64,000 nucleotides of DNA from Pontibacter lucknowensis (lineage in GTDB: Bacteria; Bacteroidota; Bacteroidia; Cytophagales; Hymenobacteraceae). The notes beneath the pieces were generated by a model, which did no database searches, was not told the DNA's origin, and worked only from the letters and a program-made list of their open reading frames with translations. The stretch lies in NCBI RefSeq assembly GCF_900156415.1, contig NZ_FTNM01000003.1:310001-374000 (forward strand). Reading direction: 5' to 3'. Below are positions 12,177 through 18,095 of this stretch, piece by piece. Position numbers and translations under genes: made by a program. The number at the start of each line of letters is the position of its first letter. Position 1 is the first letter of the stretch.

Positions 12177-12416
12177 TTAATCGTTGCTGGGCTCGTCAGG
12201 GTTGTCATAATCCCAATAAACTTCGATAGTAGCAGGCTTATCCAGGTAAGCAGGTATAGGCGTGTAGATGATCAGTTCCCATCCAATCTTCTGCATGTCT
12301 TCGCGGTGCAGGCGCCTGGCCTGCCACATCAGCCGCTCATGTATTTCCTGACCTACAGGACGACGGCTCCCAATATAGGGGCTCCCCTCTTCGAATTTAA
12401 ATGTGGTAGTATGCAT
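12177..12416 (-). CDS. Small hypothetical protein
   Basis: This 79-residue, soluble, acid-tailed protein (ending WDYDNPDEPSND) has no recognised domain. It probably starts the three-gene small-protein cluster read leftwards from about 12.45 kb. The region upstream is AT-rich and contains GCTATACCTTATAC, but no clear promoter boxes. Confidence 0.5.
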   Translation of the reverse strand: MHTTTFKFEEGSPYIGSRRPVGQEIHERLMWQARRLHREDMQKIGWELIIYTPIPAYLDKPATIEVYWDYDNPDEPSND

Positions 12417-12642
12417 AAACTACAATTTTTACAGCTATACCTTATACTACGTAAGTTGTTATGATTTGAGGTTCAGTTTATTGAGAATTATCTGAGGGGG
12501 AGATAAATAGGGCTAATTAGTTAATATTATAAGGGATGCGCAAAATTGAATATAGTGCTTTCTTTAATTAGAACAATTAAATATATAAAACGTAATAGGG
12601 TGCTAGCGACTTATTTTCTGCACTGCGAAATCCTCTAAAATC

Positions 12643-12663
12643 ATGAAGGAGATCACCCTATGA
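12643..12663 (+). promoter_or_regulatory. Strong Shine-Dalgarno inside a six-codon leader frame
   Basis: AAGGAG at 12646-12651 lies 8 bases before the ATG at 12660. Such optimal Shine-Dalgarno sequences are rare in Bacteroidota. A tiny frame (ATG at 12643, product MKEITL, TGA at 12661-12663) overlaps the start codon of the downstream gene as ATGA, which could couple translation. Confidence 0.45.
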
Positions 12664-14447
12664 TTAGAACCTTAACTCTATTTGTATTGCTGATAAGCGC
12701 CTACCCCTCTTTTGCCCAGTTTAATTCTGTAACTACCTTAAGCCAAATCCCTATTACTACGAATACAGGCGAAAAGCCTCAATCGAAAGTGTGGGTACAT
12801 GCAAATAAATTTTGGACGGTGCTGCCGGATAGTGAAGGTACCCATGTTTGGCGACTTGATGGTACAGTCTGGGTTAAGGATTTGAAGATTTCAGATAAGA
12901 CTACATCAAAAGTAGATTGTAAGGTAGTAGGGGATGTGACGCATGTGCTGTTGTTTCAAGGTGTAAATTCTGAATTAGTATCAATAGAATATGTACCTAA
13001 TAGAGAGACCTATGGTTTGTGGAGTGAAAGAAACGAAGCAACAACCATTACTTTAGGGCAGCATGTTGAAATAGCTACATTGGAGGTTGATAGTCGCGGT
13101 AGAATGTGGATAGCATCAGCATCGGAGAGTAGCACTTCTGAAGAAGACAATGATATTTTTGTGCAGTGGAGTGATTCGCCTTACTATGTCTGGAGTGACC
13201 CAATCACTCTTGCCACCCGTGTTAATTGGGATGACATATGTGTTGTCATTGCCTTACCTGGAAAAGTAGGTGTATTTTGGTCAAATCAGAATACAACAAA
13301 ATTTGGGTTCAGGACGCATGACGATAGAGACACTCCTGATGCTTGGTCTGAAATAGAGGATGTTGTGCACAACACAAATGGTAATACGAGCGGAGGTTTG
13401 GCCGATGACCATATGAATATGGCTATAGCAAGTGACGGAACATTATACTGCGCCATTAAAACAAGTTACAAGAACAGTAACCAACCATTATTAGGGCTTT
13501 TTGTGCGACGGCCAACTGGTACATGGGATAATTTATATAGTATAACTAAAGCGGGTTCAAGAACAAGGCCAATTGTAATTCTGAATGAAGTTGAAAAGAT
13601 AATAAGAGTTATTTATACAGATAATGAAAGTGGTGGAAATATAGTATATAAAGAGTCACCCCTTGATGTGATCAATTTTCCAGAGGATTTTAACGAGACT
13701 ATAAATAGATCTAATGGGCAAGCATCTAACAGAGAGCACATCTTAATAGAAGGATTCTACAACAATGTAACCAGTACCAAGGACAATTTTACCGACAAGA
13801 TTGTTGTCATGGCCTCTACCTCAAGAAATGCTCCAGCCCCATACTATGCCGTCAGTGTCTTAGCAACCTCGGAAATCATCCCGCTCCCGGTTGAACTTGT
13901 AAGCTTTACTGCCAGGCTGTCTGCTGACGATGCGGTGTTGGAATGGAGAACAGCCTCTGAGCAGGACAATGACCATTTCAGTGTGGAGTCGAGCACAGAT
14001 GGCCGAACATTTACTCCGGTCGGTAAGGTGACTGGCAATGGAACTACTCAATTGCAAAGACACTATTCCTTCACAGACAAGAATATTTCGAGGTACAGAG
14101 CGGAGGGCGTTTACTACAGGCTCCGGCAAGTCGACTATTCGGGTGAGTTTGAGTTCAGCCCGATCAGGTATGTGCGTGCGCCGGGACTTCCTGATGCCAT
14201 CACCCTCAGGGCATTCCCGAGTCCCTTTGATAGCTACCTGCAGGTACAGGTTGCTTCAAATGAAGAACAGGGTAGTACCATTATCCTTTACAATGCACAG
14301 GGGCGGGTTATCCAATCGCAGGCAATCACTTTGAAGAGAGGAATTAACACTATCTCATTGACGGAGCTTGATCTGGCGAGCGGTATTTACCTTCTGAAGG
14401 TCACTACGGGTGATCAGCAGCAAGTACTGAAACTTGTAAGTGAGTGA
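12660..14447 (+). CDS. Secreted beta-propeller-like protein with T9SS sorting domain
   Basis: This 595-residue protein has a signal peptide cleaved after AYPSFAQ (about residue 20). A long N-terminal region (to about 395) has repeated W/D motifs such as GTHVWRLDG and GRMWIAS, suggesting a BNR or sialidase-like propeller. A linker with LPVELVSFTAR and LEWRTASE follows, common before T9SS tails, and then a C-terminal type A sorting domain (about 510-595; AFPSPFDS, GIYLLKV). It should be secreted by the type IX system and anchored at the surface. Bases 12660-13830 are AT-rich and lack the GGTATA word, while the 3' end has the composition of the host, suggesting a foreign passenger joined to a native sorting tail. 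Confidence 0.75.
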   Translation: MIRTLTLFVLLISAYPSFAQFNSVTTLSQIPITTNTGEKPQSKVWVHANKFWTVLPDSEGTHVWRLDGTVWVKDLKISDKTTSKVDCKVVGDVTHVLLFQGVNSELVSIEYVPNRETYGLWSERNEATTITLGQHVEIATLEVDSRGRMWIASASESSTSEEDNDIFVQWSDSPYYVWSDPITLATRVNWDDICVVIALPGKVGVFWSNQNTTKFGFRTHDDRDTPDAWSEIEDVVHNTNGNTSGGLADDHMNMAIASDGTLYCAIKTSYKNSNQPLLGLFVRRPTGTWDNLYSITKAGSRTRPIVILNEVEKIIRVIYTDNESGGNIVYKESPLDVINFPEDFNETINRSNGQASNREHILIEGFYNNVTSTKDNFTDKIVVMASTSRNAPAPYYAVSVLATSEIIPLPVELVSFTARLSADDAVLEWRTASEQDNDHFSVESSTDGRTFTPVGKVTGNGTTQLQRHYSFTDKNISRYRAEGVYYRLRQVDYSGEFEFSPIRYVRAPGLPDAITLRAFPSPFDSYLQVQVASNEEQGSTIILYNAQGRVIQSQAITLKRGINTISLTELDLASGIYLLKVTTGDQQQVLKLVSE

Positions 14448-14482: not shown

Positions 14483-15253
14483 CTAATTGCCTTCAGTCTT
14501 TTCGACCTTCTCAAACAGCATAAAATGTTGAATCGGCAGGAAATCCTCCTGACGCTGCAAACGGAATCCGTTAGCCTCCAGCTCTTTTTTGATCTGTTCG
14601 GCCGTCATCTTGTGCAGTGCCCTGATGCGTACATCCGGATCTTCGGCTTTGTATTCCAGCAACAGCAGTTTACCGTCAGACTTCAGAGCACGATGGATGG
14701 CCTGTAGTATTTCTTTTGGGTAGGAGAGTTCATGGTAGACATCCACCATCAGGGCAATGTCAATAGCACCTGCAGGCAGGTTTACTTGCTGGCTGTCGCC
14801 CTTTACAACGATCACGTTGTCAGCGCCTTCTTTACTCCGGCGGGATTCTAACGACTTTACAAACCGGTCTTGTACTTCGACGGCGTATACCTTGCCCGCA
14901 GGTACTTTAGGCGCTATCTGAAAGGTATAGAAACCAGTGCCAGCCCCAATGTCGGCCACCACAGTATTGGGCGCCAGGTTCATGTTTTCGATGGTACGCG
15001 GTGAGTTCTCTTCTTCCTGCCGTGAGTCGCGGTCGAGCCAGTTGCCACCTGTGGCTGTCATAATAGCAGCAATCTCCCGGCCCATGTATACCTTGCCAGT
15101 ACCTCCTGACGATGGCCTTTTGTAGGTATAGCCATCGGTTTGCGTGCTGCTGTCAGGTTGCTGTGCCTGGCAGGCGTGGCAGCTGCTCAGGCACAGGGCG
15201 ATCAGGAAGGTATACAGAAAGGTGAAGCCTGGAAATTTGGTGCGTTCGATCAT
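14483..15253 (-). CDS. Exported class I SAM-dependent methyltransferase lipoprotein
   Basis: The ATG at 15253 overlaps the stop of the upstream gene (ATGA), and gives a 256-residue protein starting with a signal peptide and an SSC lipobox (LIALCLSSC). A complete Rossmann methyltransferase follows: motif I VADIGAGTGFYTF, then VYAVEVQD, and the post-motif region LMVDVYHEL and LLLLEYK. An in-frame start at 15307 would bury the signal peptide and is unlikely. A methyltransferase that needs cytosolic SAM but carries a lipoprotein signal is odd, although homologues of this kind occur in other Gram-negative bacteria. The substrate is unknown. Confidence 0.75.
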   Translation of the reverse strand: MIERTKFPGFTFLYTFLIALCLSSCHACQAQQPDSSTQTDGYTYKRPSSGGTGKVYMGREIAAIMTATGGNWLDRDSRQEEENSPRTIENMNLAPNTVVADIGAGTGFYTFQIAPKVPAGKVYAVEVQDRFVKSLESRRSKEGADNVIVVKGDSQQVNLPAGAIDIALMVDVYHELSYPKEILQAIHRALKSDGKLLLLEYKAEDPDVRIRALHKMTAEQIKKELEANGFRLQRQEDFLPIQHFMLFEKVEKTEGN

Positions 15254-15708
15254 ACGGTATATTTCTCTAGTCGCTGGGTCAGGTCGTCTATCAACTGCTC
15301 TGTCCATTTCTCAGCCACCAGTTCATAGTCTGCTTCATCCCAGTTTTGCAAATAGTCCTTCTCCAACCAAACGTTGTCCTGATTCGGGCCGATGGTGTAA
15401 AAGTTACGGTCGAGTTTAAACAGCAAATCCTTGGTTAGGTCAAAATTGTCGGCGCCCACCCGCTGAAATCCCTCCAGCCGCAGTCGCAGCCCCATCTGGC
15501 TCACGTTCCCCTTATCTAGGCTGATCTCAGTCGTGGCATCAGAGCCTGGTTCGCGCGTCCAGGTGTCAACTAATTTCTCTAGTTTGAAATCATGAAAAAG
15601 CGGAATAACATCCGCCAGGTGCTGGTGAATGTGCTGCGCCAGTTCGGGCAGAACAGTGTCATAAAGCTTACGTAAAGCCTGCTTGTCTTTGATTGGGGAT
15701 TCTTGCAT
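15250..15708 (-). CDS. Hypothetical soluble protein
   Basis: This 152-residue, mostly helical, charged protein has no recognised domain, signal or membrane helix. Its TGA overlaps the ATG of the methyltransferase gene by 4 bp, so the two are translationally coupled and probably work in one pathway. Nothing else supports a function. Confidence 0.65.
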   Translation of the reverse strand: MQESPIKDKQALRKLYDTVLPELAQHIHQHLADVIPLFHDFKLEKLVDTWTREPGSDATTEISLDKGNVSQMGLRLRLEGFQRVGADNFDLTKDLLFKLDRNFYTIGPNQDNVWLEKDYLQNWDEADYELVAEKWTEQLIDDLTQRLEKYTV

Positions 15709-15896: not shown

Positions 15897-18095
15897 ATGA
15901 AAGACCAAATCATATTAGCCGGTAAGGCATCCGGTGTCGCGGTCCTGTTAGCGTTGGCAAGTTGTACTTCGTCGCAGACGCCTCAGACTCAGGATACCCA
16001 GGTGACAACCCAACAGCAACAGGCCGTTGAAACCAACCCATTGCTGCAGGAGTGGACAGGCCCTTATGGCGGTGTGCCTGCCTTCGACAAAATGAACCTG
16101 GCCGACCTGAAGCCAGCCATGGAGAAGGCAATGGCCCTAAACCTGGCCGAAATTGAAAAGATTGCTAACAACACACAGCCCGCCACTTTCGAGAACACCA
16201 TCGAGGAGATGGAGCGTGCCGGCAAGGAGTTGAACCGCGTGTTCACGTACTATGGCATCTGGAGCAGCAACGTGTCTACGCCTGAGTTCCGCACCATCCA
16301 GCAGGAAATGGCACCGAAGATCTCTGAGTTCAATTCCAAGATCTCACAGAACGAGAAGCTGTTCCAGCGCATCAAGGTGGTGTATGACAATGCCCAGAAA
16401 AACCCGCTGCCAGCCGATCAGCAGCGTGTGGTGGAACTGGTGTACAAAGGCTTTGAGATGGAAGGTGCTAACCTGAGTCCTGAGCAGAAGCAGCGCTATG
16501 CCGCTATCAACAAAGAGCTTTCGACTCTTTATACCAAGTTCTCTAACAACATCCTGGCTGACGAGGAGAAGTATGTAGTGTACTTCACCAAAGACCAGCT
16601 GAGCGGATTGCCGGAGTCGTTTGTGAAAGCTGCTGCCAAAGCTGCCGCTGACCGTGGCAAGGAAGGCCAGTATGCCGTAACCAACACCCGTTCGAGCATG
16701 GACCAGTTCCTGACTTACTCTGACGAGCGTGCGCTTCGTGAGAAGGTATGGAAGAACTACTACTCCCGTGCCGACAACAACGACGAGAACGATAACAAGC
16801 AGAACATCGTGGACATCCTGAAACTGCGTCGCGAGCGCGTGCAGCTGATGGGCTACGACAACTATGCACAGTGGAGACTGCAGGACCGCATGGCCAAAAC
16901 GCCTGAGGCTGCGATGGACCTGATGATGGCGGTATGGCCATCCGCCATTGCCCGTGCTAAGGAAGAGGTGGCTGACATGCAGCAGCTGGCAAACAAAACC
17001 AGCAAAACCAAGATCACGATCGAGCCCTGGGACTACCGCTACTACGCCGAGAAAGTGCGTCAGCAGAAGTATGACCTGAACTCTGACGAGGTGAAGCAAT
17101 ACCTGGAGCTGGGCAACCTGACGCAGGCGATCTTCTTCACAGCTGGTGAGCTGTTCAATTTCAACTTCACGCCAGTGCCGGAAGGTTCTGTGCCAGTATT
17201 CCATGAAGACGTGAAGGTATGGGAAGTGACCGACAAGACGACCGGCGATCACATCGGTCTGTGGTACCTCGATCCGTTTGCACGTCAGGGCAAGCGCTCT
17301 GGTGCCTGGGCGACGACTTACCGCGCCCACACCACATTTGATGGTAAGAAGACGGTATTATCTTCGAACAACTCCAACTTCGTGAAGCCAGCTCCGGGTG
17401 AGCCTGTGCTGGTATCATGGGACGATGCGGAAACCTTCTTCCACGAGTTCGGCCACGCGCTGCACTTCCTGGCGTCTAACGTAAAATACCCGACCCTGAA
17501 CAGCGGCGTGCGTGACTATACCGAGTTCCAGTCGCAGTTGCTGGAGCGCTGGTTGTCTACTGACAAGGTGATCAACCAGTTCCTGAAGCACTACAAGACT
17601 GGTGAGCCGATGCCGAAAGAGTTGGTGGCCAAGATTGAGAAAGCCTCTACCTTCAACCAGGGCTTTGCAACAACTGAATTCCTGGCATCAGCCTTAATGG
17701 ACATGCACTTCCACCTGGCCGATCCGAACAACCTGGACCCGGATAAATTTGAGAAAGAAACTTTATCTAAATTAGGTATGCCGAAGGAAATCGTGATGCG
17801 TCACCGTTCACCGCACTTCGGTCACGTATTCTCTGGCGAAGGTTATGCCACCGGTTACTATGGTTACCTGTGGGCCGACGTGCTGACATCTGATGCCTCT
17901 GAAGCCTTTGCGGAAGCACCAGGCGGGTTCTATGATGCTGAGGTTGCTGCCAGACTGGTGAAGTACCTTTTTGCACCACGCAACTCCATGGACCCGGCTG
18001 ACGCTTACCGTCAGTTCCGTGGCCGCGATGCCAAGATCGATGCGCTGATGCGCGACCGTGGCTTCCCGGTACCAGGCCAGCAAGGCAAGAAGTAA
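15897..18095 (+). CDS. dcp: M3-family peptidyl-dipeptidase Dcp, lipoprotein
   Basis: This 732-residue zinc peptidase carries the HExxH motif as HEFGH (H516 to H520) followed by ALHF, with the third ligand expected in the downstream E-F-x-S-Q region (YTEFQSQLLERW). It begins with a signal peptide and an ASC lipobox (LALASCTSS), so it is a periplasmic lipoprotein that removes dipeptides from the C-termini of peptides. Length is normal for the Dcp subfamily. Codon use is strongly biased to C/G-ending codons, which suggests high expression; the GGTATA word is sparse here. A terminator follows. Confidence 0.93.
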   Translation: MKDQIILAGKASGVAVLLALASCTSSQTPQTQDTQVTTQQQQAVETNPLLQEWTGPYGGVPAFDKMNLADLKPAMEKAMALNLAEIEKIANNTQPATFENTIEEMERAGKELNRVFTYYGIWSSNVSTPEFRTIQQEMAPKISEFNSKISQNEKLFQRIKVVYDNAQKNPLPADQQRVVELVYKGFEMEGANLSPEQKQRYAAINKELSTLYTKFSNNILADEEKYVVYFTKDQLSGLPESFVKAAAKAAADRGKEGQYAVTNTRSSMDQFLTYSDERALREKVWKNYYSRADNNDENDNKQNIVDILKLRRERVQLMGYDNYAQWRLQDRMAKTPEAAMDLMMAVWPSAIARAKEEVADMQQLANKTSKTKITIEPWDYRYYAEKVRQQKYDLNSDEVKQYLELGNLTQAIFFTAGELFNFNFTPVPEGSVPVFHEDVKVWEVTDKTTGDHIGLWYLDPFARQGKRSGAWATTYRAHTTFDGKKTVLSSNNSNFVKPAPGEPVLVSWDDAETFFHEFGHALHFLASNVKYPTLNSGVRDYTEFQSQLLERWLSTDKVINQFLKHYKTGEPMPKELVAKIEKASTFNQGFATTEFLASALMDMHFHLADPNNLDPDKFEKETLSKLGMPKEIVMRHRSPHFGHVFSGEGYATGYYGYLWADVLTSDASEAFAEAPGGFYDAEVAARLVKYLFAPRNSMDPADAYRQFRGRDAKIDALMRDRGFPVPGQQGKK

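Follow-up and report, generated by a model that had tools for sequence, protein, structure and literature searches.

T9SS surface proteins of P. gingivalis diversify by domain rearrangement and allelic exchange (PMC5266723), and Rhs genes are composite, with C-terminal tip displacement and with conserved and exchangeable parts that carry distinct GC signatures (PMC2935791). The locus described here lies in a 64,000-nucleotide stretch of the Pontibacter lucknowensis genome (contig NZ_FTNM01000003.1, positions 310,001 to 374,000; hereafter the window) and resembles both systems. It shares with P. gingivalis T9SS-exported surface proteins, here as predicted, with a conserved C-terminal domain and other modules that vary. 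The P. gingivalis exchange takes place between strains of an oral pathogen, whereas here it would take place between species of another genus, and the contrast from AT-rich to GC-rich sequence inside genes is a feature of the Pontibacter case. As in Rhs genes, conserved and exchangeable parts coincide with distinct GC signatures, but there the C-terminal tip varies on a constant core, whereas here an N-terminal passenger varies in front of a constant C-terminal tail. Since both the P. gingivalis exchange and the Rhs mirror image have been described, the kind of diversification is known and the variant found here is new.

The gene product fits the type A T9SS cargo class (Por secretion tail, TIGR04183/PF18962), with which it shares a passenger, a linker and a C-terminal sorting domain (CTD), in a genome that encodes SprA; its start resembles a signal peptide. 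Nothing in the tail sets it apart from that class; what differs is that the window passenger has no family model. We favor, with a probability of roughly 0.65, the reading that this T9SS surface locus is old, that its tail stays constant and that its passenger evolves independently and can be exchanged. A search of the literature on T9SS in Pontibacter, and on the iterated word described below, found nothing on point.

Domain architecture of the surface-protein gene

The gene and its surroundings are laid out as follows, with positions counted from the first letter of the window.

12417-12659, no strand: AT-rich intergenic spacer separating a small minus-strand ORF from the surface-protein gene; probable promoter region
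12660-14447, plus strand: surface-protein ORF, 595 aa
12660-12716, plus strand: putative Sec-type signal peptide, aa 1-19 (MIRTLTLFVLLISAYPSFA), read from the translation
12717-13859, plus strand: AT-rich passenger, aa 20-400, a conserved, predicted exported beta-propeller domain (from GC3, family and model)
13872-14204, plus strand: linker domain, aa 405-515 (LPVELVSF...), conserved with the CTD, GC3 0.57
14205-14444, plus strand: type A T9SS C-terminal sorting domain, aa 516-595 (TIGR04183, PF18962)
14445-14447, plus strand: stop codon of the surface-protein ORF
14483-15307, minus strand: conserved neighbor, SAM-methyltransferase-like by sequence, a synteny marker
15897-18095, plus strand: conserved neighbor, M3-type peptidase-like by sequence, a synteny marker

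The composition changes near 13.86 kb inside the single reading frame of 12660-14447, as the original prediction had it. The interval given there begins too early: 12417-12659 is non-coding spacer, the ORF has no start before 12660, and a stretch reaching to about 12461-12498 is conserved in relatives with or without the surface-protein gene. The description of the tail as a linker plus T9SS domain was confirmed, with a TIGR04183 match over aa 519-593 (E 9.3e-14, 51.2 bits against a cut-off of 23) and a PF18962 match (E 1.5e-9, 38.4 bits against a cut-off of 27) that place it in type A. The linker, which we infer to be an Ig/FN3-like domain, and the CTD are conserved together, both among six syntenic orthologues and among the other genes with a linker-tail. 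The N-terminus is hydrophobic and ends in SFA-Q, as read from the translation. The host genome (G000) contains a gene for the SprA translocon (TIGR04189, 2441 bits) and encodes 45 proteins with a type A sorting domain. Judged from these sequence features, the product would be a T9SS cargo whose linker and type A sorting domain take the beta-propeller passenger through the T9SS, with export and anchoring at the cell surface as the likely outcome.

A small divergent ORF at 12177-12416 on the minus strand, with an ATG near 12416, adjoins the surface-protein gene. Relatives that carry the gene and relatives that lack it have this 12177-12416 stretch in the same position, at 74-93% identity.

The composition shift is shared by linker-tail genes

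Plotting composition along the gene, as had been suggested, bore out the shift: the passenger (aa 20-400) has a GC content of 0.399 and a GC3 of 0.339, against 0.499 and 0.539 for the linker and CTD (aa 405-595). In our background, a 762-kb genome sample of chosen regions enriched for T9SS genes and for which alone the ranks are valid, only 2.4% of 468 sampled genes have third positions as AT-rich as the passenger, and the split ranks 10 among the 180 sampled ORFs that are 400 aa or longer (z 5.2), behind genes that mostly carry T9SS tails too. Body-to-end GC3 shifts are larger in T9SS genes than in control genes (p 1.2e-4, 762-kb sample). The proposed search for the same tail elsewhere in the genome returned nine genes with this linker-tail, all with AT-richer passengers: at four-fold sites the passenger is the AT-richer part in 9/9 full linker-tail genes, with a mean GC4 of 0.33 against 0.51 for the tail (p 0.004). 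Passengers are likewise AT-richer in 9/9 linker-tail genes of P. indicus (G010); the rule is not significant in P. ruber (G006) or G004. Across Pontibacter, passengers of the propeller family are AT-richer than their neighbors in 43/52 copies, and in other hosts passenger GC3 tracks that of the remainder of its ORF (rho 0.89).

In this Pontibacter subclade, AT-rich passengers characterize linker-tail cargo as a class and are not the fingerprint of a recent donor. Composition shifts within T9SS cargo genes are easily taken for recent gene transfer, and that reading would mislead here because the shift is common to all nine tail-sharing genes and is kept in orthologues. GC-biased gene conversion was considered as the source of the GC-rich tails and rejected, since tail GC does not follow tail similarity.

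The hexamer GGTATA is found 171 times in the window, against 17.6 expected, and at 2.4 per kb in the G000 sample. The iterated word CAGGTATA(G/C)C is massively repeated across the window, in both coding and non-coding DNA. About 240-400 copies of AGGTATACC per strand occur in nine genomes (G000, G003, G005, G009-G011 and G015-G017), where its reversed control occurs 13 times or fewer, and about 30-106 copies occur in other Pontibacter; an uptake-sequence-like role is one guess. The claim that the AT-rich part lacks GGTATA holds only within the ORF. One copy lies at 12436, inside the interval said to be free of it, and the gap from there to 14886 spans the whole gene, GC-richer tail included. 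Genes with a GC3 below 0.45 carry 1.0 GGTATA per kb, so about 1.2 copies would be expected in the passenger, and the absence of the word is uninformative. We rejected this absence as evidence of foreign origin, since it extends to the tail and since the linker-tail passengers of several relatives carry the word at close to gene-average density.

Passenger and tail have different histories at this locus

Orthologues occupy the same site, between the same neighbors, in Pontibacter sp. HSC-36F09 (G017) and HSC-14F20 (G009), and show the same shift (passenger GC3 0.38, tail 0.50-0.51). Three further genomes, P. ruber, G004 and P. mangrovi (G035), hold passenger and linker-tail together beside the same neighbors in altered order, with passengers that are not AT-richer. 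The methyltransferase-like neighbor is 80-91% identical and in the same place in FD36 (G005), HSC-14F20, G015 and HSC-36F09, and the peptidase-like neighbor is 87-98% identical beside the locus in relatives. The site lacks the gene in G015, G016, P. indicus and G011. In the sister species FD36, whose rpoB is 94.3% identical to that of G000, a deletion of 12499-14183 has left a 99-aa CTD remnant without a start codon, which shows that losses contribute to the empty state. At its own site G003 carries 38 bases that match the 3' end of the gene and may be a vestige. These observations fit a locus that is old in Pontibacter and was repeatedly lost, in line with the rpoB tree.

Among 43 linker-tails, the six from this locus, each in a different species, fall into a single clade (support 99/97), while the passengers of the same six genes do not form a single clade (AU p 6.5e-6). 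That of P. ruber clusters with long-type paralogues (100/97), and that of G004 clusters with a paralogue from G004 itself whose C-terminus is of another kind (100/100). In G000, HSC-14F20 and HSC-36F09, passenger topology matches the species tree. The window passenger is 65-66% identical to those of its two closest orthologues (HSC-36F09 and HSC-14F20), and its four-fold excess identity to them is 0.05 and -0.02, which is chance level, against 0.27 and 0.17 for the linker and CTD. Control genes have a median of about 0.31, and none is as low as the passenger in either species. Four-fold sites are saturated in the passenger between close species and unsaturated in the tail and neighbors; taken for the window gene alone, the difference between passenger and tail is modest (Fisher p 0.044 and 0.12). 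No sharp recombination breakpoint was seen at the domain border in a 60-codon scan of the synonymous-codon profile.

The original prediction saw a foreign exported domain acquired as a cassette in front of a resident sorting domain. Read as a recent event in this lineage, this would be the insertion of AT-rich sequence from a distant donor. The composition shift near the domain border is real, members of the passenger family occur in several phyla, and four syntenic sites lack the gene, all of which count in favor of such an insertion. We nevertheless consider it very unlikely, and recent foreign acquisition of the passenger is not supported. Two related species carry the same two parts, with the same shift and at the same site and with the same neighbors; orthologues with both parts and this shift are what the prediction itself had named as its refutation. 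Three more species have passenger and linker-tail together at related sites, and FD36 retains a decayed remnant. The saturation of four-fold sites means that the composition of a donor would have been erased. A distant donor is further contradicted by the nearest relatives of the passenger, which are Bacteroidota proteins, and by passenger composition that follows the host in other phyla. The idea of a mosaic survives in part, in another sense: passenger and tail trees differ, as the proposed separate phylogenies were meant to reveal, with the tails but not the passengers in one clade and passenger synonymous sites saturated, but the relatives of the passenger do not point to a distant donor.

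Other linker-tail genes follow the same pattern

Among 24 reciprocal best linker-tail pairs between G000 and five close relatives, mean identity is 41% for passengers and 87% for tails (p 1e-7); in control genes the last 190 residues differ from the rest by 0.8 points on average (sd 9.3). Two other linker-tail genes of G000 (L083:4681-10686 and L083:1388-3910, in G000:C5) compare with their FD36 counterparts (L209) at passenger identities of 39% and 23%, with tails at 95% and 81%, respectively, against a median of 95% for control proteins of the same two genomes. The remaining linker-tail proteins bear Ig_7, PKD and TIG modules, which are typical of adhesin-like surface proteins.

Plain vertical descent offers a simpler account, in which an exposed passenger evolves fast without exchange, by drift or by being driven apart, relaxed codon selection makes it AT-rich and the tails are constrained. 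The agreement of passenger and species trees in G000, HSC-14F20 and HSC-36F09 is what it would predict, and the AT-richness of 43/52 Pontibacter passengers speaks for it too. We consider it unlikely, as the passenger has saturated four-fold sites whereas the linker of this gene does not, and four-fold identity is uncorrelated with GC4 in control genes, few of which are equally AT-rich. The incongruent passengers of P. ruber and G004, and the two FD36 passengers that lie so far below both their own tails and the control median, speak against it as well.

Two adjacent linker-tail genes of P. indicus (L202, G010:C8:15001-34000) have tails that are 99% identical, with a GC3 of 0.78-0.79, and passengers that are 38% identical, with a GC3 of 0.42-0.45. 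The two passengers belong to two classes, both found in other species: one is 84% identical to a passenger of HSC-36F09, and the other is closer to passengers of G015 and HSC-14F20. The near-identity of these tails would also follow if the passengers had evolved normally since ancient duplications and gene conversion among tails kept the tails alike and GC-richer. Some tails do have between-species four-fold values of 0.50-0.67, against a control median of about 0.3. Homogenization of tails is very unlikely: tails of different loci are mostly distinct within a genome and group by locus across species, the four-fold identity of the window tail is ordinary, and the GC4 of homogenized tails is not uniformly high.

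For the exchangeable-passenger reading, we propose that the linker-tail has been inherited vertically at this site, with several losses, while the passenger diverges and may sometimes give way to homologous passengers that come from a paralogue or another strain. Replacement would proceed by homologous recombination in the flanks, conserved tail included, and its benefit would presumably be surface diversification. More tentatively, and at somewhat less than even odds, the linker and T9SS sorting domain may serve as a constant recombination handle through which loci exchange AT-rich passengers between paralogues and species, giving rapid surface diversification in a mirror image of Rhs tip displacement. 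Conserved sorting tails joined to passengers that evolve independently and are partly exchanged make a testable pattern, one that would account for how T9SS bacteria can change what their surface carries while export stays intact.

Passenger family, fold and likely role

The passenger belongs to a beta-propeller family of about 345 aa that is spread across phyla and strongly conserved, and over which no Pfam or NCBIfam model was found. Relatives occur in 22/59 genomes of a first search, all in the genus Pontibacter; the genus restriction that this suggested was overturned by a scan of 84,980 species, which returned at least 270 loci. The best 79 of these fall in Bacteroidota, Planctomycetota, Actinomycetota, Calditrichota, Hydrogenedentota, Acidobacteriota and others, and the nearest relatives of the window passenger are Pontibacter and other Bacteroidota proteins. 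The propeller domain makes up the entire secreted protein in some hosts and is combined in others with additional modules that look LamG-like by eye. What follows it in Pontibacter is a short CTD, a run of long repeats or the linker-tail described here.

An AlphaFold2 model of the passenger is an all-beta propeller (pLDDT 82.5, pTM 0.85) that matches seven-bladed propellers (7esl, Z 27.0 over 347 residues; 5mvh, Z 26.4; 5mul, Z 24.8). Among solved folds, the PL42 rhamnose-glucuronate lyase FoRham1 comes closest (Z 27), followed by GH145 proteins, PLL lectins and PL25 ulvan lyase (Z 24-26), all at 8-15% identity. The predicted fold is shared with PL42/GH145 proteins, PL25 ulvan lyases and Photorhabdus PLL lectins, in alignments that span 300-350 residues at Z 24-27, while the low identity and the lack of a BNR_4 (PF15892) match set the passenger apart. 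The model has the seven-bladed propeller that characterizes PL42/GH145, a fold common to lectins and so unspecific; PLL-type lectins score a Z of about 26 at 12-15% identity, as a comparison of folds only. FoRham1 is reported to belong to the BNR_4 sequence family (PMC8377490), of which no match was found in the passenger family or anywhere in the genome, and a passenger-profile sequence search of solved structures returned no significant relative.

Eight residues (K43, D86, H95, D144, D192, E233, K267 and R283) do not vary across 143 passenger-family sequences, and a ninth, H220, is 99% conserved; this pattern suggests either an active site or a site for a fixed ligand. H95, H220 and R283, which are 99-100% conserved, are candidates for a base/acid His pair and an Arg neutralizer like those of the anterior pocket in PL42/GH145 enzymes. 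From its modeled fold and setting, the passenger probably acts on an extracellular sugar polymer, by binding or by cleaving it.

The propeller domain also stands alone, as a protein of roughly 400 aa without a sorting tail, in Hydrogenedentota, Bacteroidales and Acidobacteriota (L267, L273, L278, L282, L301 and L303); three of these proteins, when scanned, gave no NCBIfam match. Two more passenger-family genes lie in tandem in G000 (L045:8473-12975, G000:C16), one with a short CTD and one with long repeats, and tandem pairs of this kind recur in many Pontibacter.
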